The notes under the pieces: generated by a model
Told to the model about the DNA's origin: nothing
What the model saw: only the letters and a program-made list of their open reading frames with translations
Database searches by the model: none
In this document: positions 12,563 through 26,697 of the stretch, piece by piece
Layout of the letters: the number at the start of each line of letters is the position of its first letter
How positions within the stretch are numbered: the stretch's first letter is position 1
From: Agromyces sp. H17E-10
GTDB taxonomy: Bacteria > Actinomycetota > Actinomycetes > Actinomycetales > Microbacteriaceae
Direction of reading: 5' to 3'
Assembly: GCF_022919715.1 (NCBI RefSeq)
Contig: NZ_CP095042.1
Location: 2,480,001-2,544,000, forward strand
DNA length: 64,000 nucleotides
Program-made: the position numbers and the translations under genes

Positions 12563-12578
12563 GTCTGGGATCGCAGAC
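12563..12578 (+). promoter_or_regulatory. HutR-type operator upstream of hutG
   Basis: GTCTGGGATCGCAGAC, an imperfect palindrome with one change from the site at 25861-25876. Its centre is 62.5 bases upstream of the hutG start codon, and 42 bases separate it from the -10 box, exactly as at hutU. It fits the consensus TCTGwwATwCCAGA that I recall for the corynebacterial IclR-type regulator HutR only in part (mismatches at the w positions and one in the right arm). Confidence 0.75.
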
Positions 12579-12620
12579 GTGGAGGCGGCGGAGGGACTGG
12601 GCGCACGCGGCTGCGACTCG

Positions 12621-12626
12621 TAGCGT
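12621..12626 (+). promoter_or_regulatory. -10 box TAGCGT of a leaderless hutG promoter
   Basis: TAGCGT occupies positions -12 to -7 relative to the hutG ATG, so transcription should start at the start codon itself. No ribosome-binding sequence is present. Confidence 0.65.
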
Positions 12627-12632
12627 GGGGGC

Positions 12633-13580
12633 ATGGCCGACGTCGCACTCTCGAACGATCCCCTCTGGCCCCGCGCGGGCGACTGGCCCGCGCCCGAGTC
12701 GCTCGATCCCGGAGCATCCGCCCGACTGGCCTTGCTCGGAGTGCCCGCCTGGCGCACGTCGCTCTCACCGACCAACGCGCACACGACGCCCGCGGCCGTT
12801 CGACAGGCGCTGCGCCGCTACAGCCCGGCGCTCGTTCCTGATCGGCAGAGCACCGCCCGCGAGCCGGGCCGCGACACGGTCGACCTCGGCGAGCAGGTCG
12901 TCGTCGACGCCGGCGACATCGTCGAGCCCGACGGCCCCGAGGGAGAGGCGCGCACGCGCGCCCGCGTCGCCGAGCTGCTCGAGCGCGCCGAGACCGTCAT
13001 GGCCATCGGCGGCGACAACTCGGTGACGGTCGCGACCGCGCTCGGCGCGTACGGCGACCGGCTCGACACCGCCGGCCTCATCACGATCGACGCGCACTAC
13101 GACCTGCGCGACGGCGTCTCGAACGGCTCGCCCGTTCGCCGACTCGTCGAGGCCGGGCTCGACCCGCGCCGCATCGTGCAGATCGGCATCGCCGACTTCG
13201 CGAACTCCGCCGTCTACGCGCGTCGAGCGGCCGAGCTCGGCATCACGGTGGTCCACCGCGACGAGCTGCACGGCCGCCGCCCGGCCGACGTCATGGCCGA
13301 GGCGCTCGAGATCGCCGGTGCCGCCGGCGGTCCGGTGCACTTCGACATCGACGTCGACGCGTGCGACCGGTCGGTCGTTCCCGGATGCCCCGCCTCGATG
13401 CCCGGCGGACTCGCGGCGTGGGAGCTCCGCGCGCTCGTGCGCGCCGCGGGCCGCGACCCGCGCGTCGTGAGCGCCGACCTCGCCGAGGTCGACGCGAGCG
13501 TCGACACCCCCGACGGACGCACCGTGCGGCTGACCGCGCTCTGCGTGCTCGAGTTCCTCGCGGGCGTCGCGGCGCGCTGA
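12633..13580 (+). CDS. hutG: Formimidoylglutamase (arginase/agmatinase family)
   Basis: A 315-residue ureohydrolase-fold enzyme with the three manganese-binding motifs in order: GGDNS near residue 129, DAHYDLRDG near 151 and DIDVDACDRSVVPG near 237 (family DxDxxDPxxxPG). By family alone it could be an agmatinase or arginase, but the HutR-type operator upstream, with the same spacing as at hutU and hutH, makes formimidoylglutamase the best call: it would split formimidoylglutamate to glutamate and formamide, the last step of histidine breakdown. GGDNS has Asn where arginases have His (GGDHS), which may reflect the different substrate. It stands alone, 2.2 kb from the end of hutI, and appears to be translated from a leaderless message. 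Confidence 0.85.
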   Translation: MADVALSNDPLWPRAGDWPAPESLDPGASARLALLGVPAWRTSLSPTNAHTTPAAVRQALRRYSPALVPDRQSTAREPGRDTVDLGEQVVVDAGDIVEPDGPEGEARTRARVAELLERAETVMAIGGDNSVTVATALGAYGDRLDTAGLITIDAHYDLRDGVSNGSPVRRLVEAGLDPRRIVQIGIADFANSAVYARRAAELGITVVHRDELHGRRPADVMAEALEIAGAAGGPVHFDIDVDACDRSVVPGCPASMPGGLAAWELRALVRAAGRDPRVVSADLAEVDASVDTPDGRTVRLTALCVLEFLAGVAAR

Positions 13581-13627
13581 CGCCCGCGTCGGCTCGACCC
13601 GGCCGTAGCGCGGCGCGCGGCGGCGTG

Positions 13628-13642
13628 ACAGGCTGAGCCTGT
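13628..13642. promoter_or_regulatory. 15-bp palindrome before the sulfite-oxidase-like operon
   Basis: ACAGGCT-G-AGCCTGT is perfectly symmetric around one base. It ends 44 bases before the ATG of the molybdoenzyme gene, a usual place for an operator. No regulator can be assigned; the rest of 13581-13686 is plain GC-rich sequence. Confidence 0.4.
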
Positions 13643-13686
13643 ACGCGACCGCCGCGGCGGCGGCCGCTCCCGTGAGGGGAGGCGCG

Positions 13687-14277
13687 ATGTCGTTCATCAC
13701 CAGAGGGTTCAGCGGTCGCAGTCGCGAGCGCGACGAGCGGCTCCCACCGGGGCAGACGCTCGTGCACGACTTCCCGGTGCTGTCGGCCGGGCCGACCCCC
13801 GAGGTCGACACGGCCGACTGGGAGTTCACGATCCGCACCGAGTCGGGCGAGCGCCGTTGGAGCTGGGATGAGTTCATGCGGCTCGAGATCGAGGACGTCA
13901 CGACCGACATCCACTGCGTCACGCACTGGTCGAAGCTCGGCACGAGCTGGCGCGGCGTCTCGCTCGATACGTTGTTCGCCGACGTCGAGACGGACTACGA
14001 CTACGTGATGGCGCACAGCTACGGCGGCTACACGACGAACGTGCCGCTCGACGAGCTGCTCGACGGCAAGGCCTGGGTGGCGTTCGAGTTCGACGGCGAA
14101 CCGCTCGACCCCGAGCACGGCGGTCCGGCGCGACTGCTCGTGCCGCACCTCTACTTCTGGAAGAGCGCGAAATGGGTGCGCGGGCTCGAGATGCAGCCCT
14201 CCGACGACCCGGGGTTCTGGGAGCAGAACGGCTACCACCTGCACGGCGACCCGTGGAAGGAAGAGCGCTACTGGTGA
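13687..14277 (+). CDS. Sulfite-oxidase-like molybdopterin-dependent oxidoreductase
   Basis: A 196-residue protein consisting of the oxidoreductase molybdopterin-binding domain. The cysteine expected to bind molybdenum is in DIHCVTHWSKLGTSW near residue 78, and the conserved MAHSYGGYTTNVPL and KWVRGLEM segments follow. It has no twin-arginine signal and no cytochrome domain, so it should be cytoplasmic and take electrons through a partner. That partner is probably the flavoprotein encoded next, whose GTG overlaps this stop (GTGA). Substrate unknown: relatives reduce or oxidise S- or N-oxides. Start supported by GAGGGGAGG 5 bases upstream. The molybdenum cofactor genes 5-7 kb to the left may serve it. 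Confidence 0.88.
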   Translation: MSFITRGFSGRSRERDERLPPGQTLVHDFPVLSAGPTPEVDTADWEFTIRTESGERRWSWDEFMRLEIEDVTTDIHCVTHWSKLGTSWRGVSLDTLFADVETDYDYVMAHSYGGYTTNVPLDELLDGKAWVAFEFDGEPLDPEHGGPARLLVPHLYFWKSAKWVRGLEMQPSDDPGFWEQNGYHLHGDPWKEERYW

Positions 14278-15041
14278 GCGGTGTGCAGCAGCTGCAGGCG
14301 GCGCCCCGCACCGGGTGGCACGTCGCCGAGGTCGTCGAGACGCGGCGCGAGACCCCGTCGGCCGCGCGCATCACGCTCGACGTCGACGGCTGGCCCGGCA
14401 ATCTCGCCGGGCAGCACCTCGACGTGCGACTCACCGCACCCGACGGGTACACGGCGACGCGCTCGTACTCGATCGCCTCGTCGGGCGACGGCGAGCGGGT
14501 GGTGCTCGCGGTGGATCGGCTGCCCGACGGCGAGGTGTCGCCGTTCCTGGTCGACGAGCTCCGTGCCGGCGACCGGCTCGAGGTGCACGGCCCGCTGGGC
14601 GCGTTCTTCGTGTGGCGGCCGCCGGCCGACGGCGGCACAGGGCGACCGGTGCAGCTCATCGCGGGCGGTTCCGGTGTCGTGCCCCTCGTCGCGATCGCGC
14701 GGGCGCACGCCGAGGCGGGGGATGCCACGCCGTTCCGCCTGCTGTATTCGGTGCGCACGCCCGACGACGTCTTCTTCGCGGACGAGCTCGAGACGGCGGC
14801 GCGTGGGCCCGCCCCGTTCGCGGTCGAGTTCGTCTACACGCGCCGCGCCCCTGCCGGCACCGACGCGCCCGTCGGCCGGATCACGCGCGAACGGCTCGCC
14901 GCCGGAGTGATCGGGGCCGACGCTGCCCCGGTCGTGTACGTGTGCGGGTCGACCGGCTTCGTCGAACGCGTCGCCGGCTGGCTGATCGAGCTCGGGCACC
15001 ATCAGACGGCCATCCGCACCGAGCGCTACGGAGGTACCTGA
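14274..15041 (+). CDS. FAD/NAD(P)-binding oxidoreductase (ferredoxin-reductase type)
   Basis: A 255-residue flavoprotein of the ferredoxin-NADP reductase superfamily. The FAD-binding signature RSYSIAS is near residue 63, the NAD(P)-binding GGSGVVPLVAI near 131 and the C-terminal YVCGSTGFVERV near 222; no iron-sulfur domain is attached. It should pass electrons from NAD(P)H to the molybdoenzyme encoded immediately before it, the two genes sharing a GTGA overlap, and the downstream zinc-ribbon gene starts within its stop codon (TGATG). The GTG start is chosen for that overlap. Confidence 0.87.
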   Translation: MSGVQQLQAAPRTGWHVAEVVETRRETPSAARITLDVDGWPGNLAGQHLDVRLTAPDGYTATRSYSIASSGDGERVVLAVDRLPDGEVSPFLVDELRAGDRLEVHGPLGAFFVWRPPADGGTGRPVQLIAGGSGVVPLVAIARAHAEAGDATPFRLLYSVRTPDDVFFADELETAARGPAPFAVEFVYTRRAPAGTDAPVGRITRERLAAGVIGADAAPVVYVCGSTGFVERVAGWLIELGHHQTAIRTERYGGT

Positions 15042-15313
15042 TGCAGCACTTCGACGGCAACCTGCTCGCGGGACCACTCGCCGACGTGTTCGCCTTCGAC
15101 CCGACGGGGGCGCGTGCGCGCTGCAACGGCTGCGGCGCCGTCGCCGAGCTCGCGACGATGCTCGTCTATCGCAGCGGCGCCGGCAGCGTCGCGCGCTGCC
15201 GCGACTGCGGTGCCGTGCTGCTCAGCCTCGTCGACGGCGACGGCCGGATGTTCGTGAACTTCATCGGCATGGGAGCGATCGAGATCGCGACGACAGGGAG
15301 GGACGACGCATGA
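15041..15313 (+). CDS. DUF6510 zinc-ribbon protein
   Basis: A 90-residue protein with two CxxC pairs, CNGCG near residue 28 and CRDCG near 52, arranged as a small zinc ribbon and flanked by hydrophobic strands. It corresponds to what I recognise as DUF6510. Its start codon shares a base with the stop of the flavin reductase gene and its end overlaps the next gene by ATGA, so it is tightly tied to the molybdoenzyme pair. It might act as an electron-transfer adaptor or assembly factor, but a zinc ribbon is not redox-active by itself; the function is unknown. Confidence 0.8.
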   Translation: MQHFDGNLLAGPLADVFAFDPTGARARCNGCGAVAELATMLVYRSGAGSVARCRDCGAVLLSLVDGDGRMFVNFIGMGAIEIATTGRDDA

Positions 15314-15795
15314 AGACGCTCTACCTCGTGCGGCACGCCAAGTCGGACTGGGGTGACCCGCTGCTCGACGACCACGACCGTCCGCTCAACGAACGCGGCC
15401 TGCGCGACGCCCCGGCGATGGGGCATCGGCTCGCCGAACGGGGTGTGCGCCCCGACCGCATCGTGACGAGCACCGCGGTGCGCGCGCGCAGCACGGCGCG
15501 GCTCCTGGCGCGCACGCTCGGCGTCGGCGACGACCACGTCGTCGAGGAGCCGCGCCTCTACGGTGCGACCGGGTCGGGCATCCTGGCGGTCGCGTCGACG
15601 CTCGACGACGCCCTCGGCTCGGCGATGCTCGTCGGCCACAACCCGGGCATGAGCGACGCCGTCGGCGAGCTCACCGGCGAGTGGGTCGAGCTGCCGACCT
15701 GCGCGGTCGTCGAGTGCCGCGTGAACGTCGATCACTGGGCCGAGCTCGTCGAGGGCACGGGCGAGCTCGTCTCGGTCGCGACCCCGAAGGACTGA
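15310..15795 (+). CDS. SixA-like histidine phosphatase family protein
   Basis: A 161-residue enzyme of the histidine phosphatase superfamily with the catalytic RHG-type motif as LVRHAKSDWGD at residue 6, an arginine in STAVRARSTARLLA near 55, and the second catalytic histidine in LVGHNPGMSD near 106. This is the compact SixA layout. SixA proteins dephosphorylate phosphohistidine on proteins or small phosphomonoesters; the substrate here is unknown. It overlaps the DUF6510 gene by ATGA, the fourth member of the sulfite-oxidase-like operon, though such housekeeping phosphatases may be passengers. It converges on hutI, 42 bases away. Confidence 0.88.
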   Translation: MKTLYLVRHAKSDWGDPLLDDHDRPLNERGLRDAPAMGHRLAERGVRPDRIVTSTAVRARSTARLLARTLGVGDDHVVEEPRLYGATGSGILAVASTLDDALGSAMLVGHNPGMSDAVGELTGEWVELPTCAVVECRVNVDHWAELVEGTGELVSVATPKD

Positions 15796-15837
15796 GGCGG
15801 CCCGCCGCTCAGCCGCCGCGAGTCGAGGGTCGTCGGG

Positions 15838-17061
15838 TCAGGCGACCAGCGCGCCCGCAGCCCAGACGCGGCGCACGAGCGGTACGCCGGGCCGGTAGGC
15901 GAGGTGCAGGTAGCTCGGCGCGTCGAGCTCGACGAGGTCGGCGCGCATGCCGGGTCGGAGGGCGCCGACGTCGGTGCGGCGCAGCGCCTTGGCACCCGCC
16001 GCGGTCGACGCCCAGAGCGCCTCGGCGGGGGTCATGTTCATGTCGCGCACCGCGACGGCGATGCAGAACGGCAGCGAGCTCGTGAAGCACGACCCCGGGT
16101 TGCAGTCGCTCGCGAGGGCGACCGTGACGCCGGCCTCGATGAGTCTGCGCGCATCGGGGTACGGCTGCCGGGTCGAGAACTCGACGCCGGGCAGAAGGGT
16201 CGCGACGGTGTCCGAGCCGGCCAGTGCCGCGACATCCTCATCGCTCAGGAACGTGCAGTGGTCGACCGAGGCCGCCCCGAGCTCGACCGCGAGGCGCACG
16301 CCGCCGCCCTCGCCGAGCTGGTTGCCGTGCACGCGGATGCCGAGTCCCGCGTCGCGGCCGGCCTCGAGCACGCGGCGCGACTGCTCGGGCGAGAACGCGC
16401 CGCGCTCGCAGAACGCGTCGACCCAGCGTGAGTACGGGGCGCAGGCGTCGAGCATCTCGCCGATGACGACGTCGACGTACGCGTCGCCCGCGGCGACGGG
16501 GTCGCCGTCGAAGCGCGGGTCCTCGCGGAACTCGAACGGCACGACGTGGGCGCCGAGGAAGGTGACCTCGTCGGTGACCTCGCGGGCGAGGCGCACGAGG
16601 CGCTCCTCGTCGGCGACGCTGAGGCCGTAGCCCGACTTGATCTCGAAGGTCGTCGTGCCCTGGGCGTGCAGCTCGGCGACGAAGCCCGCGAGGCGGGCGC
16701 GGAGCTCGTCGTCGGTCGCGGCGCGCGTGGCGGCGACCGTCGAGCGGATGCCGCCGGCCTCGTAGCGGCGACCGGCCATGCGCGCCGCGAACTCCTCGGC
16801 CCGGTCGCCGCCGAACACGAGGTGCGTGTGACTGTCGACGAAGCCGGGGATCATCGCGCGGTGGTGGGCGTCGACGATCTCTGCGCCCGATTCGGGCGTG
16901 TGGGCGGATGCCTCGGCGGCGGTGCCGACCCAGCTCACGAGTCCGTCCTGAACGAGCACGGCGGCGTCGCGCACGATGCCGAGCGGGCCGCCCTCGCGGC
17001 CGGGCTGCTCGTCGTTGGTGACGAGCTCGCCGATGTTCGTGATGAGGGTCGCGCGAGGCAT
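15838..17061 (-). CDS. hutI: Imidazolonepropionase
   Basis: A 407-residue amidohydrolase-family enzyme that opens 4-imidazolone-5-propionate to formimidoylglutamate, the third step of histidine breakdown. Metal- and substrate-binding motifs are in place: [19 protein letters not shown] near residue 72, [20 protein letters not shown] near 142, and NQLGEGGG with the following HCTFLSDED near 250. Length is normal for the family. The ATG at 17061 starts [17 protein letters not shown]; its ribosome site (AAAGG) is weak. hutI lies 122 bases behind hutU on the same strand, with a stable hairpin between them, so it is probably read from the hutU promoter at reduced level. Confidence 0.95.
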
Positions 17062-17118
17062 CCGGTTCGCCTTTCGATCTTCGTACTGGGTCGAGTGTTC
17101 TCGAGTCTGGTGAACCGA

Positions 17119-17169
17119 GTGGGCGATCTCGGCGGTTCGATCGCGGTGCGATGCGCCGAGATCGCCCAC
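17119..17169 (-). terminator. 16-bp-stem hairpin between hutU and hutI
   Basis: Perfect 16-base arms (17119-17134 and 17154-17169) enclose a 19-base loop, 15 bases after the hutU stop. There is no T-run. It could lower readthrough into hutI or protect the 3' end of a hutU message. Confidence 0.6.
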
Positions 17170-17183
17170 GCGGCGGAGGGGGC

Positions 17184-18923
<1,740 letters not shown>

Positions 18924-18977
18924 GATTCGATGGTCGCGCACGGGCGCCACCGCGACAACGGATGCCGCGTGCTGGGC

Positions 18978-18993
18978 GTCCGGTATCCCAGAC
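18978..18993 (-). promoter_or_regulatory. HutR-type operator upstream of hutU
   Basis: Read on the hutU strand it is GTCTGGGATACCGGAC, close to the sites before hutG and hutH. Its centre lies 62.5 bases from the hutU start codon and 42 bases separate it from the GACCAT box. Confidence 0.75.
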
Positions 18994-19019
18994 TTGCTCC
19001 GCCAGGGGACGCGAACGGC

Positions 19020-19047
19020 GCCCGCCCCGGCCGAAGCCCGGGCGGGC
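19020..19047 (-). terminator. Probable terminator of the CPBP-protease gene
   Basis: GCCCGCCCCGG (19020-19030) can pair with CCGGGCGGGC (19038-19047) with one bulged base. It lies 35 bases past the end of the CPBP gene. Confidence 0.45.
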
Positions 19048-19081
19048 CCTCAGTTGCACCTGGGTGACGCGCGTCGGCCGA

Positions 19082-19912
19082 TCAGGCCGGCGTGCGGGCG
19101 GGCACGAGGCCCTCGACGGCCGGCTGCTCGACGCGGCCGCGAATGAAGATGAGCAGGACGATGCCGGTGATCGTCACGACGATGTTGCCCAGCCCGGCGA
19201 GGTGCGGGAGTGCACCGTCGACCGGGTACGAGACCGTCATGAATGTCGACGGATCGGTCGCCGCGTGCAGCAGGATCGGCCAGATCAGGCGGCCGGTGAC
19301 GCGCAGGGTGAGGTACATGCAGACACCGAAGCCGAACGTGTATGGCACCTGGAACAACGTCGAGAGCAGGTCCTGCCCGGTGAGCAGGTTGCCGAGGTGC
19401 AGCGCGGCGAAGAGCGCGGCCGACACGGCGGCGACGGCGAACTCGTGGTGGCCCGCCTTGCGCATGAGGTTCACCACGAAGCCTCGGGTGAGCACCTCCT
19501 CGGCGAAGCCGATGCAGAGGCCGACGACGAGCCAGGAGATGACGACGGCGAAGCCCGCCTTCGCATAGTCGATCGAGGCGAAGTGCAGCACCGCGAAGAG
19601 CAGCGGCACGGCGAGGCCGATCCACATCCACCAGCGACCGCGGATCGGCTGCCGACCGAACAGCTGGCCGAACCAGCCGAGCGACCACGCGAAGAGCACG
19701 AGCAGCAGTCCGCCGAACCCGATCGGCAAGACGTAGTCGACCCAGAGCACGGCCACCGGGTCGTCGCCGACCGCCTCGGCGATGGGGCTGACGACCACGA
19801 ACGAGAACCCGGCGTACAGCGCGTAGTAAACCACGACGACGAGCAGCGACCGCCACCAGCCGCCCTGCTCCCAGAATCGCCGCCACGCGTTCGCGTGCTC
19901 GAGATCGGCCAT
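19082..19912 (-). CDS. CPBP-family intramembrane metalloprotease
   Basis: A 276-residue membrane protein with about seven hydrophobic helices. The protease motif EExxxR appears as FAEEVLTRGF near residue 141, with HLG near 178 (FAALHLGNLLTG) and the later HAATDPS supplying the other expected metal ligands. CPBP (Abi/Rce1-type) proteases cut substrates in or near the membrane; several protect bacteriocin producers, and no substrate is evident here. The ATG at 19912 has GAGAGGAG 8 bases before it. It is divergent from a MalT-type regulator gene, with 181 bases between starts holding a TCACCTGGGTGA palindrome, so the two may be linked in control. Confidence 0.88.
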   Translation of the reverse strand: MADLEHANAWRRFWEQGGWWRSLLVVVVYYALYAGFSFVVVSPIAEAVGDDPVAVLWVDYVLPIGFGGLLLVLFAWSLGWFGQLFGRQPIRGRWWMWIGLAVPLLFAVLHFASIDYAKAGFAVVISWLVVGLCIGFAEEVLTRGFVVNLMRKAGHHEFAVAAVSAALFAALHLGNLLTGQDLLSTLFQVPYTFGFGVCMYLTLRVTGRLIWPILLHAATDPSTFMTVSYPVDGALPHLAGLGNIVVTITGIVLLIFIRGRVEQPAVEGLVPARTPA

Positions 19913-20057
19913 CGCCGTACTCCTCTCAGGACCGCATGCCGCGGTCGTCGCCCGAGGCCCCCGGGTCCCGGCATCCACGCCTGGTCGACAGGCACGTTCC
20001 GACGGTATTGGACCCCGTCCGTCGGCCACGCATGCGGCACGCACGCGGCGCCGGAAT

Positions 20058-20069
20058 TCACCTGGGTGA
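20058..20069. promoter_or_regulatory. Palindrome TCACCTGGGTGA in a divergent promoter region
   Basis: A short symmetric site (TCACC-TG-GGTGA) 24 bases before the MalT-type regulator gene. Eleven of its 12 bases recur at 19057-19067, beyond the end of the divergent CPBP gene. It could be an autoregulatory operator; nothing else is recognisable in 19913-20093. Confidence 0.35.
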
Positions 20070-20093
20070 TTCCCTCGGCCAGAATGAAAGGCG

Positions 20094-22289
20094 ATGTTCC
20101 CGGCCACGAAGTTCCGACCGCCGACGCCGGGGTCGCACGCCATCGCCCGGCCCGAGGTCTTCGATCGGCTGCGCCTCGAGCGCCAGGACGTACTCGTCGT
20201 CCGCGCGCCCGCGGGCTACGGCAAGACCACCGCCGTCGCGCACTGGCTCGACGACGTCGCGGCGGGCCCGAAGCCGGCGCGGCACGTCTGGGTGACCCTC
20301 GACGAGGACGACGACGACCCGGCGGGCCTGTGGGAGGCGATCGCCGCGGCCACCGCGGGCGCGGGCCTCGACGACGGACGCTCGGTCGGGCCCGCGCCGG
20401 CCGGCGGAGTCCGGGCGAACACGATCGTTCCGCTGCTCGACGCGTTCGCGGACTCGGCCGACGACTGGGTGCTCGTGCTCGACGACGCCCACCTGCTCAC
20501 GAGGGAGGACACGGTCGCGAGCCTCGACTGGTTCCTCGGCCGCGCACCCGCGAACCTCGACACCGTGGTGGTCACGCGGGCCTCGCTCGAGCTGCCGGCG
20601 TTCGAACGCCTGCGAGCGCGCGGCCGCGCGCTCGAACTCGGCGTCGATGTGTTGCGCCTCGACGGCGACCGCATCGAACGCCTGCTGCGCGAGGCCTACG
20701 GGCTCGACCCGACCGCCGCCGAGGTCGCCCGCATCGACCACCTGACCGGGGGATGGCCCGCCGCGGTCTCACTCGTCGGCTCGGCGCTCGCCCGCGGCGT
20801 GCCGCTCGCGCGCGTCGGAGCATCGCGTGCCGACGACGGCGGTCTCGACGCCCTCGTGCACGAAGGCCTCGCGGGCAGTTCACCCGCCGACCACGAGCTG
20901 CTGCGCGACCTGTCGGTCTTCGAACGCTTCGACGCCGCGGCCCTTGATTTCGTCGTGCAGGATCCGCGGGCCTGGCCGCTCGCGATGGAGGTGGCCGACC
21001 GCACCGGGTTGATCGCCACGCTCGACGACGAGGCCCGATGGTGGCGCCTGCACCACCTCGTGCGCGACCGGCTCGCCATCGAACTCGAGCGGGCGGATCC
21101 GGTGCGGCGGCGGGCGCTGCACCGCCGTGCCGTCGACGCCTTCGAGCGCGAGAACGACCTCTCGGTGACGATGCACCACCTGTTCGGGGCCGAGGACTAC
21201 GACAGCATCGCCGACATCCTCTCGAACGTGCGGGCCAACGCGATCGTGCCACGGCAGGCGCTCGGCCTGAGCTGGCTCGACCGGATCCCCGAGTCGGCCC
21301 TGAGCCGCGACCCCCGCCTGGCGTTCTGGGAGGCGTGGGCCACCGCGACGGGCGGCGACCCGGCGCGGCGCGACCGGGCGCTCGCACGCGGTCGCTCGGC
21401 GGCGGGCACCCGGGCGGTCGACGCGTTCCGCACGTGGGACGACGTCGAGGACTTCGTCACCTCGATGGCCTGTTACGACGACGTGGGCGCCGCCCGTCGC
21501 GCGGGCGAACGGTTCCTCGCGCGATATGACGACTCGAGCCCGCTGGCGGCGCTCGTCGAGCTGCGGCTGGCGACGATGCTGTACCTCGAGGGCCGTTGCG
21601 ACGAAGCGATCGAGCGTCTCGCCCTCCTCGACGAGGGGGCGCCGCTCGCTCGCCCGCTCCGTGTGCTCGTACCCGCGTACCGGGCGTTGTGCCTCTTCGA
21701 GCTCGGTGAACCGGCGGCGGCGGCCACGCAGGTCGAACGGACCCTGCACGCGCGCACCGCGTTCGGGCTCGGGCAGGACCCCGTGTACCTGCCCGCCGAA
21801 CAGGCGCTCGCCCGGCACCGCACCGCGTCGGGCGACCCCGCCGCGGCGCACGCGACCGCCTCGAACGCCCTCGAGACCGCTCGCCAGCAGGGCGACACGG
21901 TGCTCGTCGTCCCGCACCTGCTGCTCGAGCTCGCCCGGGCCGATTTCCAACTCGGGCGCCACGACGATGCGGTCGTCTCGCTCAACCGTGCGGACGAACT
22001 CTGCGCGGGTCTCGCCGACCCGGGCGCCCTCGCCGTGCGCATCCGCGAACTGCGTCGGCGGTCCAACGCCGATCGCGCGCCGTCGACGGGTCGGGAGGGC
22101 CTCAGCCGCCGAGAGCTCGAGGTGCTCGCCCTGCTGCCGAGCTCGCTGAGCGCCTCGGAGATCGCGTCGGAGCTGTTCGTGTCGACGAACACCGCACGCA
22201 GCCACATCAAGTCGATCCATCGCAAGCTCGGGGTCACGAATCGAGACGAGGCCGTCGCCGCGGGCAGGCTCGCGGGACTCATCGTCTGA
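20094..22289 (+). CDS. MalT-type LuxR-family transcriptional regulator
   Basis: A 731-residue LAL/MalT-like regulator. The N-terminus KFRPPTPGSHAIARP precedes a Walker A site APAGYGKTTAVAHWL (about residue 42) and a Walker B VLVLDDAHLL (about 125); a winged-helix segment and TPR-like helices fill the middle; a LuxR helix-turn-helix closes the protein (LSRRELEVLALLPSSLSASEI, about 669-720). Such proteins are switched by a ligand and ATP and activate nearby promoters. The ligand is unknown. The divergent CPBP protease gene is the obvious candidate target. Ribosome site GAAAGG just before the ATG. Confidence 0.88.
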   Translation: MFPATKFRPPTPGSHAIARPEVFDRLRLERQDVLVVRAPAGYGKTTAVAHWLDDVAAGPKPARHVWVTLDEDDDDPAGLWEAIAAATAGAGLDDGRSVGPAPAGGVRANTIVPLLDAFADSADDWVLVLDDAHLLTREDTVASLDWFLGRAPANLDTVVVTRASLELPAFERLRARGRALELGVDVLRLDGDRIERLLREAYGLDPTAAEVARIDHLTGGWPAAVSLVGSALARGVPLARVGASRADDGGLDALVHEGLAGSSPADHELLRDLSVFERFDAAALDFVVQDPRAWPLAMEVADRTGLIATLDDEARWWRLHHLVRDRLAIELERADPVRRRALHRRAVDAFERENDLSVTMHHLFGAEDYDSIADILSNVRANAIVPRQALGLSWLDRIPESALSRDPRLAFWEAWATATGGDPARRDRALARGRSAAGTRAVDAFRTWDDVEDFVTSMACYDDVGAARRAGERFLARYDDSSPLAALVELRLATMLYLEGRCDEAIERLALLDEGAPLARPLRVLVPAYRALCLFELGEPAAAATQVERTLHARTAFGLGQDPVYLPAEQALARHRTASGDPAAAHATASNALETARQQGDTVLVVPHLLLELARADFQLGRHDDAVVSLNRADELCAGLADPGALAVRIRELRRRSNADRAPSTGREGLSRRELEVLALLPSSLSASEIASELFVSTNTARSHIKSIHRKLGVTNRDEAVAAGRLAGLIV

Positions 22290-22423
22290 CGGCGTGACTC
22301 GCGGCCGCGCGTGTCAGCGCAGGCCGATGGTGTGCGCGGCCGAGCCGACGCGGCTGCAGCGCTCGAGCCTCAGCGCATGCCGATGCAGAAACCGCCCGAA
22401 CCCACCGCCTGCAGCGCTCGGCG

Positions 22424-24031
22424 TCAGCCCAGGTCGATGCCGCGCGCGGCCATGAACGGGATGGCGTCGATCGCGCTGCCGCCGATGCGGACCTCGAAGT
22501 GCAGGTGGCAGCCGGTCGAGGCTCCGGTCGATCCGACGGCGCCGATGAGCTCGCCCGCCTCGACCTTCTCGCCGGCCTTGACGAGGATGCCGCCGTCGAT
22601 CAGGTGGGCGTACCCGGTGGAGACGCCCGAGCCGTGGTCGATGAGGATCCAGTTGCCGTAGCTGCCGTTCGGGCCGGCGTCGACGACGGTGCCGCCCGTC
22701 GCCGCGTAGACCGGCGTGCGGCAACCCGTGGCCAGGTCGGTGCCCCGGTGGAAGTCGTTGACGCCCGGCAGGGGCTTGTCGGGCCGCGGACCGAAGCCGT
22801 CGGTGACGTGGCTGCCCGAGACCGGCAGCGACCAGCCCTGGTTGCTCAGCTGGCCGGAGTCGGTCGGAAGCGTCTCGAGGAACGCGACGCTCGTCGACGC
22901 GACGCGTGTCTTCAGGCCCGAGAGCCCCGCGCGTGCGGCGCTGACCGCGCCCTTGGCCTGCTCGACCTTGCGCTCGGCGGCGTCGATGTCGATCGCGTCG
23001 ACGTCGGCCCACGCGTCGTCGGCGCGCTGCTGTGCGGCGTCGGCCTCGGCGTCGAGCTTGGCGGTGATCTTCAGCAGTTCGTCGGTGTCGCCGGCGATCT
23101 CGGTCACGCGCGCGACACCGCCGAGGCCGGCGAGCAGGTCGCGACCCGAGCCGAACGCGGCGCCGATGGAGTTCAGCGAGGCGTCGCCGCCCTTCGCCGC
23201 GGCGACGTAGACGGCGGCGGCCGAGTCGGCCTTCTCGCGCGCCTGCTCGGCGAGGGTCTGCATGCGTTCGGCGATGCCGCGAGCCACCTCGCGGGTCGAG
23301 CGCGCGGCGTCAAGCGCGGCCTCCGCGTCACGCAGGTCGGCGAGTGCGCGGTCGAGCTTGGCGCGGGCCTTCAGCAGGCTGCCGGCGTTCGAGTCGAAGC
23401 CGAGGCTCGCGATGCGGGCGAACGGGCCATCGCCGATGAGCACGACGGGTGCGCGCGGCGTCGTCGCGGGGGTGGCCGGTGCCGAGCCGGTGCCGGGCGT
23501 CTCGCTCGGCGAGGGGCTCGGGCTGTCGGTCGGCTCGGGAGTGTCGGTCGGCGTCGGGGTCGGCGTCGGCTTCGGCGTCTCGGTCGGGGTGGGAGTGGGC
23601 GTGGGCTTCGGAGTCGGCGTGGGGGTCGGCGTCGGGGTCGGCGTCTCGGTCGGGGTCGGCGTCTCGGTGGGCGTCGGCTCGGGCGAGGGGCTCGGCTCGG
23701 GCGAGGGGCTGGGGTCGGGCGAAGGGCTCGGCTCCGTCGCGGGCTCTTCGGCCGCGGCGTCGGCGTCGCTCGTGGTGCCCGAGTCGGTGGCGGATGCATC
23801 GGCCGTGCTCGCCGCGTCGGCGGCCGCAGCATCGGGCGCGTCGGTGGTGGTCGTCGTCTCGGACGTCGCCGTCGTCGCATCGACCGGTGTCGCCTCTTCG
23901 GCGAGGGCCGGGGTCATGCCCCCGACACCGATGAGCACTGCCACCGCGGCGGCCGCGATCGCCGTCCCGCTCGGGCGCAGTCTTTGCGGGCGGAGCGGGT
24001 CGTGCTGGTTCGAGGCGAAGCGGTGGGGCAT
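22424..24031 (-). CDS. Secreted M23-family peptidoglycan peptidase with proline-rich linker and coiled coil
   Basis: A 535-residue protein. A signal peptide (hydrophobic [20 protein letters not shown] cleavage near residue 44) is followed by an Ala/Thr/Asp-rich stretch, a long Pro-Thr/Pro-Ser linker (about 95-195), a helical coiled-coil region (about 220-400) and a C-terminal M23 domain with the zinc ligands in [10 protein letters not shown] (about 445) and HLHFEV (about 515). The layout resembles cell-wall hydrolases or their regulators (EnvC/RipA-like) that act at the septum or in wall remodelling; both zinc motifs look intact, so it should be active. The linker DNA is a low-complexity PT-repeat tract. 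It is convergent with the MalT-type gene. Confidence 0.9.
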
Positions 24032-24177
24032 AGGGTTCCGTTCGGTTTGCCGGTTCAGGGCCGACGAAACCCAGTCTCGCATCGACCCGGTGAGGGCACA
24101 ACAGGTCTGTTCACAGGCTTCGTGCCCTTTTCGGGGGAGACTTCGCGCCCGGCCGACGGCCGACTCGGCACGAACAA

Positions 24178-24222
24178 GGGCCGGCGCGGTCGCATCCGGA
24201 ACTGATGCGACCACGCCGGCCC
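24178..24222 (-). terminator. Hairpin terminator downstream of hutH
   Basis: 19-base arms (24178-24196 and 24204-24222), matching but for one G-T pair, enclose the loop CGGAACT, starting 24 bases after the hutH stop. The remaining part of 24032-24245, upstream of the M23 gene, shows no other structure. Confidence 0.75.
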
Positions 24223-24245
24223 TTCGGCGTCGGCGGGGACTCCGG

Positions 24246-25805
24246 TCAGTCGAGCCGACCGGCGACCGACGCCGCCTCGGCCGCGACGCGGCCGCTCGCG
24301 ACCGCGGCGGCGACGGCCTCGATCTCGGGCGACAGGAAGCGGTCGGGACCGGGGCCCGCGCCGAGCGACTCGGTGAGTGCGACGACCGCACCGGTCGGGG
24401 CGCCGGGCTCGAGCGGGGCGCGAAGCGCGAGACCGCGGGCGGCCGTGAGCACCTCGATGGCGAGCACGCGCGAGAGGCCGTCGACGGCGCGGCGCAGCTT
24501 GCGGGCGGCGGCCCAGCCCATCGACACGTGGTCCTCCTGCATGGCCGACGAGGGGATCGAGTCGACCGACGACGGCACCGCGAGGCGCTTCATCTCGGAG
24601 ACGATGCCCGCGGCGGTGTACTGCGCGATCATGAGGCCCGAGTCGACGCCGACCTCGTGCGCGAGGAAGGGCGGCAGGCCCTGGTTGCGGGCCCGGTCGA
24701 GGAAGCGGTCGGTGCGCCGCTCCGACATGGATGCGACGTCGGCAGCCGCGATCGCGAGGAAGTCGAGCACGTAGGCGACCGGGGCGCCGTGGAAGTTGCC
24801 GTTCGACTCGACCCGGCCGTCCTTCGTGAGCACGGGGTTGTCGACGGCGCTCGCGAGCTCGGCCTCGGCGACGGAGATCGCGTGGGCGACCGTGTCGCGG
24901 GCGGCGCCGTGCACGATCGGCGCGCAGCGCAGCGAGTAGGCGTCCTGCACCCGGCCGTCTTCGGGGCCCTTGTGCGAGTGGATGATCGGCGAGTCGGCGA
25001 GCAGCTTGCGGAAGTTGCCCGCCGAGATCGCCTGGCCGCGCTGCGGACGCAGCGCCTGCAGGTCGGCCGCGAACACGGCGTCGGTTCCCATGAGGCCCTC
25101 GACGCTCATCGACGCCGAGATGTCGGCGGTCGTGAGCAGCATCTGGAGGTCGGTGATCGCGAGCGCGAGCATGCCGAGCATGCCGTCGGTGCCGTTGATG
25201 AGGGCGAGGCCCTCCTTCTCACCCAGGTGGAGGGGCGTGATGCCGGCCGCCGCGAGCGCCGAGGCGGCATCCGTCGCCTGGCCCGTCGCGTCGCGCACGT
25301 CGCCCTCGCCCATGGCGACGAGCGCGCAGTGGGCGAGCGGTGCGAGGTCGCCCGAGCAGCCGAGCGAGCCGTACTCGCGCACGACGGGGGTGATGCCGGC
25401 GTTGAGGATCGCGGCGTAGGTCTCGGCGGTCTCACGGCGCACGCCCGTGCGGCCGGTCATGAGGGTCGAGAGGCGCAGCAGCATGAGGGCGCGCACGACC
25501 TCGCGCTCGACCTCGGCGCCCGAGCCGGCGGCGTGCGAGCGCACGAGGCTCGCCTGCAGCTGGGCGCGGCGGTCCTCCGCGATGAAGGTCGTGGCGAGCG
25601 CGCCGAAGCCCGTCGAGATGCCGTAGTGCGGGTTCGGGTCGGCGGCGAGGCCGTCGATGATCTCGCGGCTCGCGGCGACCTCGTCGAGGGCGGCGGGGTC
25701 GAGCACGACGGGCGCGCCGTGGCGAGCGACCGCGACGACGTCGTCGATGCTCAGGCCGGCGATGCCCACGGTGACGGCGGTGGGGGTCGAAGTCGCGTTG
25801 GTCAT
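24246..25805 (-). CDS. hutH: Histidine ammonia-lyase
   Basis: A 519-residue enzyme that removes ammonia from histidine to give urocanate, the entry step of the pathway. The prosthetic MIO group forms by cyclisation of an Ala-Ser-Gly triad; here the site reads [14 protein letters not shown] (about residues 144-157), with Cys in place of Ala, a variant I recall from actinobacterial histidases. The catalytic N-terminal YGISTGFG (about 62) is intact. The ATG is followed by [11 protein letters not shown]; no ribosome site is visible and a GAATAT box close to the start suggests a leaderless message. The HutR-type operator is centred 63.5 bases upstream and is shared with the divergent regulator gene. 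Confidence 0.96.
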
Positions 25806-25860
25806 GCCTGATATTCCACAACGTGGATGCCGCCGCCGGGAGTCCCTCGATCGGCCTGGT

Positions 25861-25876
25861 GTCTGGGATGCCAGAC
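25861..25876. promoter_or_regulatory. HutR-type operator shared by hutH and hutR
   Basis: GTCTGGGATGCCAGAC, a palindrome with 6-base arms, matching the TCTG..AT.CCAGA form recalled for HutR sites. For hutH it is centred 63.5 bases before the start codon. For hutR it ends 5 bases before a TAGGCT -10 box (25882-25887), so a bound protein would cover the hutR -35 region and repress its own gene. Confidence 0.8.
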
Positions 25877-25920
25877 CGGCGTAGGCTGGCGGAACGGATT
25901 CCCGACGAGGAGGTCAGCGC

Positions 25921-26697
25921 ATGACGACATCGAAGGTGCCCGCCGCCGACCAGACCCTCGCGATCCTCGCCCATCTCGCCGGGCAGCGCGGGCCCGTGCC
26001 GGCCGCGACGATCGCGCAGGCGCTCGAACTGCCCCGTTCGACCGTCTACCACCTGCTCGCGGTCATGCAGGAGCGCGGCTTCGTCGTGCACCTGCCCGAG
26101 GAGCGGCGCTACGGCCTCGGCATCGCGGCGTTCGAGCTCTCGAGCGGGTTCAGCCGGCAGCAGCCGCTCGCCCGGCTGGGCGGTCCGCTCGTCGCCTCGC
26201 TCGTCGACCGCATCGGCGAGAGCGGGCACCTCGCCGTGCTGCACGGCCGCGACGTGCTCTACCTCGTCGAGGAGCGCGCCCCCCGGCGGCCGTCGCTCGT
26301 GACCGACGTCGGCGTGCGGCTGCCCGCGCACCTCACCGCGACCGGCCGCGCGATGCTCGCCGCCCTGCCGCCCGCGCAGCTGCGTGCGCTCTACCCCGAC
26401 CGGGCCGCGTTCGCGTGGCGCGGCGACCCCGAGGCATCCGGCCGGTGGCGGTACTCGCTGCTCAAGCAGGTGCTGCACGGCGTGCGCGAGGCCGGTTTCG
26501 CCGGCGAGGACGGCGAGGTCACCGAGGGCCTCGCCTCGGTGGGCGTGGCCGTGCTCGACCACGTCGGCTGGCCGGCGGCCGCGATCGCGGTCACCTATCG
26601 GGCCGACTCGGATGCCGCGGCACGGGCCGACGAGATCACGAGCGCCGTCCGTGCCGCCGCGGGGGAGTTGTCGCGCCGCATCGGCGCCGTACGCTGA
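25921..26697 (+). CDS. hutR: IclR-family regulator of histidine utilisation (HutR-type)
   Basis: A 258-residue IclR-family protein: winged helix-turn-helix at about residues 8-70 (AATIAQALELPRSTVYHLLAVM) and an effector-binding C-terminal domain (GESGHLAVLHGRDVLYLVEE, then a PAHLTATGRAMLAALP stretch). It is divergent from hutH, and its predicted site recurs before hutG and hutU, so it very likely controls the whole histidine pathway; urocanate or histidine would be the natural effector. Site positions suggest activation of the hut genes and repression of itself. Ribosome site GAGGAGG is well placed, unlike at the leaderless hut genes. The name HutR is by analogy with corynebacteria. Confidence 0.85.
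   Translation: MTTSKVPAADQTLAILAHLAGQRGPVPAATIAQALELPRSTVYHLLAVMQERGFVVHLPEERRYGLGIAAFELSSGFSRQQPLARLGGPLVASLVDRIGESGHLAVLHGRDVLYLVEERAPRRPSLVTDVGVRLPAHLTATGRAMLAALPPAQLRALYPDRAAFAWRGDPEASGRWRYSLLKQVLHGVREAGFAGEDGEVTEGLASVGVAVLDHVGWPAAAIAVTYRADSDAAARADEITSAVRAAAGELSRRIGAVR

Follow-up and report, generated by a model that had tools for sequence, protein, structure and literature searches.

In class I activation, of which CRP at −61.5 of lac is an example, a regulator acts from a single site that leaves the −35 region free. The original description of HutR is reportedly that of Schroeder et al. in 2012, on the protein of Corynebacterium resistens. HutR belongs to the IclR family. According to Suvorova and Gelfand 2021 (PMC8222616), binding sites of this family show helical periodicity and are mostly found at −20 to −80 relative to the start of the gene. 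The excerpted text of that survey pools the family, gives no fixed spacing for HutR and contains the word 'leaderless' 0 times. Its list of motifs includes GTCTGWWATWCCAGAC for HutR, which is also treated in PMC3350403, and an initial annotation of the DNA studied here had named a related motif for Corynebacterium HutR. For transcription starts of Mycobacterium tuberculosis, PMC3898074 describes a C at −1 and TANNNT 7–12 bp upstream.

Here we analyse a stretch of 64,000 nt (the window) from the genome of the soil bacterium Agromyces sp. H17E-10 (4.25 Mb, one contig), which carries hutG, hutU followed by hutI, and hutH divergent from hutR (Table 1). The C. resistens HutR is reported to be an IclR-type regulator encoded with hut genes; likewise, the window has an IclR-family protein encoded beside hut genes and a palindrome resembling GTCTGWWATWCCAGAC ahead of them. 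Our comparisons make it probable that HutR activates hutG, hutUI and hutH from a site near −62 while repressing its own gene, and that the enzyme messages are leaderless.

Operator position at hut genes

The three palindromes are centred 62.5, 62.5 and 63.5 nt ahead of the ATGs of hutG, hutU and hutH, exactly where the initial annotation had placed them. No other site in the window comes within one mismatch of GTCTGGN4CCAGAC, and 100 simulations gave a mean of 0.27 such sites and a maximum of 2. Looser patterns were not enriched: with up to three mismatches the window held 18 sites (45 expected), and with up to two the whole genome held 111, fewer than the 159 obtained for a reversed control. 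Genome-wide, the strict motif occurs as one perfect match (hutH) and at seven distinct one-mismatch places, two of which are the hutG and hutU sites. A sharper pattern, GTCYGGNATNCCRGAC, was found in 53/60 Agromyces genomes and its reversed control in 0/60 (among the matches listed), and all nine fetched sites remote from hutR lay upstream of hutG (three) or hutU (six). We reject a chance origin of the strict motif on the basis of the simulations with at most one mismatch, the genus-wide occurrence and the fixed ATG distances. In this genome and its relatives the operator is conserved before hut genes with a geometry far beyond chance.

HutR orthologues were present in 57/60 Agromyces genomes. 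A first set of 40 regions around hutR plus the window yielded 16 hutG, 33 hutU and 40 hutH promoters, and an ATG stood 62.5 or 63.5 nt from the operator centre in 89/89 of them. Among the operator-bearing promoters of a wider Agromyces set, in-frame ATGs occupied these two positions at 54/54 hutH, 53/54 hutU and 20/22 hutG genes, the remaining two hutG having the ATG at 61.5 or 64.5. Over all distinct promoters we counted 151 in-frame ATGs at 62.5, 71 at 63.5 and no more than eight at any other distance. Operator-bearing rows in these tallies are distinct by sequence and phylogenetically non-independent, operator-less rows were not de-duplicated, and taxon groups were assigned by hand. L019–L040, L111–L156 and parts of L237–L286 were chosen for carrying an operator, which biases operator presence, not its distance from the ATG. 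Pattern matches of the own genome (L002–L018) stand outside the tally; two of them, L006 and L007, are the sites of hutG and hutU, which had entered the counts as part of the window. In L207 and L231, set apart from the taxon groups, hutH started at 62.5 or 63.5 (2/2).

The operator was present in 22/23 Agromyces hutG rows. Its conservation ahead of orthologues of the gene at 12633 supports the hutG role proposed for this gene in the initial annotation, a gene that the standard model leaves uncalled.

The spacing was unchanged while N-termini shifted relative to the window proteins (hutH 0 to +19, hutU −4 to +22 and hutG −3 to +3 residues), and the 18 bp beside the operator had a mean pairwise identity of 0.46 at hutH, 0.61 at hutU and 0.41 at hutG. 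Constant spacing next to diverged flanks and shifting N-termini argues for constraint rather than mere shared descent of the sequence.

Outside Agromyces, the ATG stood at 62.5 or 63.5 in 58/60 hutH, 10/12 hutG and 5/8 hutU of other genera of the family. In other families of the order the counts were 19/23 for hutH (plus four operator-less rows) and 1/1 for hutG. Other families of the class gave 11/17 for hutH, with one further row lacking an operator, and an operator was found in 0/7 of their hutU rows. Of the six hutH exceptions in the class, one had the ATG at 64.5, four had an ATG at 62.5–65.5 that opened a short frame, and the last was L309. The four short frames (L286, L299 and L304 of g169; L301 of g127, in the same family f38) run for 23–36 codons to the hutH start or close to it, and in L286 and L301 their stop overlaps this start as ATGA. 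It is possible that they encode a leaderless leader peptide coupled to hutH. L294 and L296 are the other two of only five g169 genomes, and there hutH itself begins at the operator-spaced position. In L309, two HutR-type operators stand in tandem ahead of hutH, 31 bp apart, and the one closer to the gene has its ATG at 63.5.

−10 elements and 5' leaders

The initial annotation had proposed TAGCGT (hutG), GACCAT (hutU) and GAATAT (hutH) as −10 elements, 42–44 bp from the operators. The first two stand. GAATAT is ruled out for want of conservation: the hexamer shared by 47/54 Agromyces hutH promoters is TGGAAT. With TGGAAT, the near-constant gap holds and its length becomes exactly 42 bp at all three window genes, the extra base of the window hutH falling between the −10 and the ATG. 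The −10 types are TAGCGT-like at hutG, GAGCAT/TGNGAT-like at hutU and TGGAAT-like (also TGCAAT) at hutH, with an A at the second position in 0/54 Agromyces hutH versus 25/54 hutU promoters. A [TG]R...T hexamer was present at a gap of 42 bp to the operator in 50/54 hutH and 54/54 hutU promoters of Agromyces and in 55/60 hutH promoters of other genera of the family.

No Shine–Dalgarno (SD) core at a spacing of 4–10 nt precedes hutG, hutU or hutH of the window, in agreement with the initial annotation. The same was true of Agromyces as a whole, where such a core was found before 0/127 starts at 62.5/63.5 in these three genes (0/89 in the first set). In an imperfect control, a core was near 21/41 hutR and 13/32 hutI candidate starts. 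The −10 hexamer lies 6–7 nt ahead of the start codon, and position −1 is C in 78/89 Agromyces promoters. These promoters resemble those of actinobacterial leaderless genes as given in PMC3898074 (a −10 roughly 7–12 nt ahead of the start codon, a C at −1 and no normally spaced SD). What sets them apart is that, in several genes, the predicted leaderless state goes with a regulator at fixed spacing, and that other lineages have a leader in its place. Judging from these features, the hutG, hutU and hutH messages of Agromyces appear to begin at the start codon itself.

Such a leader was found in presumed Corynebacterium (g225), where HutR occurs in 50/121 genomes and 20 regions were fetched. Unlike in the window, with its start codons at 62–63 nt, the likely hutU starts lay 99–234 nt from the best site in 18/18 rows (one site was weak, 9 of 13), and 17/18 had an SD-like core, AAGG also being allowed. 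In a stricter tally, 12/13 hutU starts were outside 62.5/63.5; the thirteenth (L360) has an in-frame GTG at 63.5 together with an SD-led ATG at 150.5. At offset 50, counted from the ninth base of the operator and corresponding to a 42-bp gap as in the window, TANNNT was present in 12/13 promoters, and no other offset from 20 to 109 held it in three or more of the 13. Because hutU of presumed Corynebacterium keeps the 42-bp gap despite its leader, and Agromyces hutH and hutU have the same offset, the conserved distance is that from operator to −10, the Agromyces start codon being placed on the predicted transcription start.

We lean towards a regulon that extends across the class Actinomycetes, in which an IclR-type activator would work at a strictly set distance of 42 bp (43 bp at some genes) from the −10 of non-homologous promoters, some with a −10 that lacks the key A. 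In some lineages the start codon would have shifted to the transcription start, and others would have gained a leader with an SD or a short upstream frame that is itself leaderless, with the position of the regulator unchanged.

Proposed mechanism and alternatives

In the mechanism that we propose, the operator is held 42 bp upstream of the −10 at hutG, hutU(I) and hutH, the −10 being poor at hutU and hutH. If transcription begins at the A of the start codon, the operator centre would lie near −62.5, from where class I activators reach RNA polymerase, and the placing of start codons at this predicted transcription start would make the messages leaderless. With its presumed ligand, either histidine or one of its breakdown products, HutR would turn on all three units at once, and the same operator over the −35 region of the divergent hutR may lead to autorepression.

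Relative to the predicted transcription start, the enzyme genes have the features of class I promoters: a single operator upstream of the −35 region, near −61.5, with strict spacing. Activation at hutG, hutUI and hutH is indicated by the strict spacing, by weak −10 elements and by a site that lies outside the core promoter, and a hutH −10 without the key A fits activator dependence. The arrangement is like that of CRP at lac in its one site, centred at about −62.5, and in the −35 left free; it differs in the protein family and in the predicted leaderless transcripts, and a contact with polymerase at hut is presumed. Towards hutR, the shared palindrome lies over the −35 region of this gene in the window, as the initial annotation had noted. 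In the Agromyces regions the distance between the operator and the projected first residue of HutR ranges from 21.5 to 245.5 nt. A TAGGCT/TACGCT-like −10 (TANNNT) starts 10–17 nt from the operator's ninth base in 25/40 hutR promoters, so that the operator covers the hutR −35 region there. Such variable spacing, with the operator over the −35 region, suggests that hutR is repressed.

A number of results weigh against the proposed mechanism or its generality. Within Agromyces, one hutU of 54 (L370) has an SD-led start at 133.5, the hutG gap is split between 42 bp (10/22) and 43 bp (12/22), and 15/40 hutR promoters have no TANNNT at 10–17 nt past the operator. The window hutG matches TIGR01227 best, at 135.6 bits compared with a curated cut-off of 229.15. 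Since a G at −11 makes the hutH −10 poor for a sigma-70-type promoter, another sigma factor or another start is possible at this gene. A core of the GGAG/AGGA/GAGG type, or longer, lies 0–3 nt before 52/127 Agromyces ATGs, including 32/54 at hutH; this purine-rich core is too near for a usual SD, yet it is not nothing. The observation concerns 12621–12632, 18924–18935 and 25806–25818 and their counterparts in relatives, hutH being where the core is commonest.

In other genera of the family, an SD core at normal spacing precedes 4/58 hutH starts at 62.5/63.5, and no operator was within reach of 34/42 hutU, 28/40 hutG and one hutH row. With hutU and hutG mostly operator-less, it is mainly hutH that keeps the spacing rule in these genera. 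In other families of the order, 0/11 hutU start at 62.5/63.5 (one at 64.5) and 9/11 have an SD-led ATG at 102.5–121.5, while the hexamer at 42 bp is found in 11/23 hutH and 5/11 hutU. For hutH of other families of the class the hexamer count is 10/17. Presumed Corynebacterium had no operator, at the threshold used, in 38/39 hutH and 7/20 hutU rows.

Three other explanations were considered. Operator and geometry may be real with no class I contact at −62, HutR acting in some other way, for instance through DNA bending or a second factor, or the promoter being read by another sigma factor. Tetramer binding, which PMC8222616 gives as possible for IclR-family proteins, and the hutH −10 elements TGGAAT/TGCAAT without the usual A would suit this idea. 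We regard it as rather unlikely in view of the operator-to-−10 distance, which is 42 bp (43 bp in part of hutG) at the TANNNT promoters of hutG and presumed Corynebacterium hutU and also 42 bp at TGGAAT promoters.

HutR might instead repress the enzyme genes from the upstream site and be released by histidine or urocanate, the fixed spacing having some other cause; the IclR family does include repressors, activators and dual regulators, according to the same survey (PMC8222616). However, the operator, with an extent of about −70 to −55, leaves the −35 and −10 free, and no second site for looping is conserved over the 89 promoters, where second-best scores were 7–10 of 12. The spacing is also strict at the enzyme genes and loose towards hutR, and the −10 elements of hutH and hutU are degenerate, all of which makes repression of the enzyme genes quite improbable.

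That transcription begins further upstream and the ATG distance was fixed by common descent of the region is very improbable, although hutU of presumed Corynebacterium and other families carries leaders and a purine-rich core sits 0–3 nt before many Agromyces starts, because the same distance recurs at three unrelated genes, is kept across 18-bp stretches of 41–61% mean identity and N-terminal length changes, and goes with a −10-like hexamer 6–7 nt before the ATG and no normally spaced SD at any of the 127 starts.

The interpretation given in the initial annotation, activation by HutR from near −62 on leaderless messages, is thus supported in the parts open to sequence comparison; activation, binding by HutR and the transcription start are what we infer from it. 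HutR, its motif and the positioning of IclR-family sites were already known, and the geometry and the swap between leaderless and leadered genes appear to be new. None of the titles and abstract openings listed in searches of open-access papers reports this geometry. An annotated regulator is in this way turned into a testable mechanism, with operator, −10, transcription start and translation start all predicted by comparison. The lineages amount to a natural series in which one promoter type occurs both with and without a 5' leader, a help in studying when and why leaderless messages arise, and operator-to-ATG spacing can expose leaderless starts and correct gene starts.

Window features and further operator sites

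Table 1. Genes and promoter elements of the hut loci in the window (positions of the 64,000-nt stretch)
Feature	Position	Strand	Remarks
hutG operator, GTCTGGGATCGCAGAC	12563..12578	+	among the three best palindrome matches in the window
hutG −10 hexamer TAGCGT	12621..12626	+	42 bp past the operator, 6 nt ahead of the ATG
hutG (formimidoylglutamase-like), predicted leaderless	12633..13580	+	ATG 12633; TIGR01227 best match; conserved operator
hutI (imidazolonepropionase)	15838..17061	-	ATG 17061; TIGR01224, 358 bits; downstream of hutU
hutU (urocanate hydratase), predicted leaderless	17184..18923	-	ATG 18923; family profile match
hutU −10 hexamer GACCAT	18930..18935	-	gap to operator 42 bp
hutU −35-like TTGTCG	18953..18958	-	spacer to −10 of 17 bp
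hutU operator GTCCGGTATCCCAGAC, read on the gene strand as GTCTGGGATACCGGAC	18978..18993	-	among the three best window matches
hutH (histidine ammonia-lyase), predicted leaderless	24246..25805	-	ATG 25805; family profile match
hutH −10 hexamer TGGAAT (G replaces the usual key A)	25813..25818	-	42 bp from the operator, 7 nt ahead of the ATG
Operator common to divergent hutH and hutR, GTCTGGGATGCCAGAC	25861..25876	.	among the three best window matches
hutR −10 hexamer TAGGCT	25882..25887	+	hutR −35 region inside the operator
hutR SD, AGGAGG	25908..25913	+	7 nt ahead of the ATG; unlike the three enzyme genes
hutR, IclR-family regulator	25921..26697	+	best profile models are IclR-family, each under its cut-off

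In other genomes, operators were also seen beside further genes. In L132, L133, L134 and L146 the adjoining genes belong to the Peptidase_M20 family, and in L133 and L134 a GTG stands at 62.5. We take these genes, as a guess, to be of the allantoate amidohydrolase kind, and perhaps they provide a replacement enzyme of the pathway. At about 4080 of L154, an operator precedes a Transp_cyt_pur permease gene (PF02133) in a hut region, a candidate uptake gene. L121 has an operator between hutR and a divergent gene for a Rieske/VanA-type oxygenase, in a 3-kb stretch with no match to a hut enzyme.

A match in the own genome, GTCTGAGATCCCAGAC (L004, genome position 2170332), was rejected as an extra member of the regulon, having no start codon at 62.5 or 63.5 on either side. 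It sits at the 3' end of one gene and upstream of another open reading frame, the product of which seems, by eye, akin to Orn/Lys/Arg decarboxylases. Together with GTCTGCGTCCCCAGAC (L005), it forms a pair of HutR-like palindromes 21 bp apart at 2170332–2170368, outside the window.

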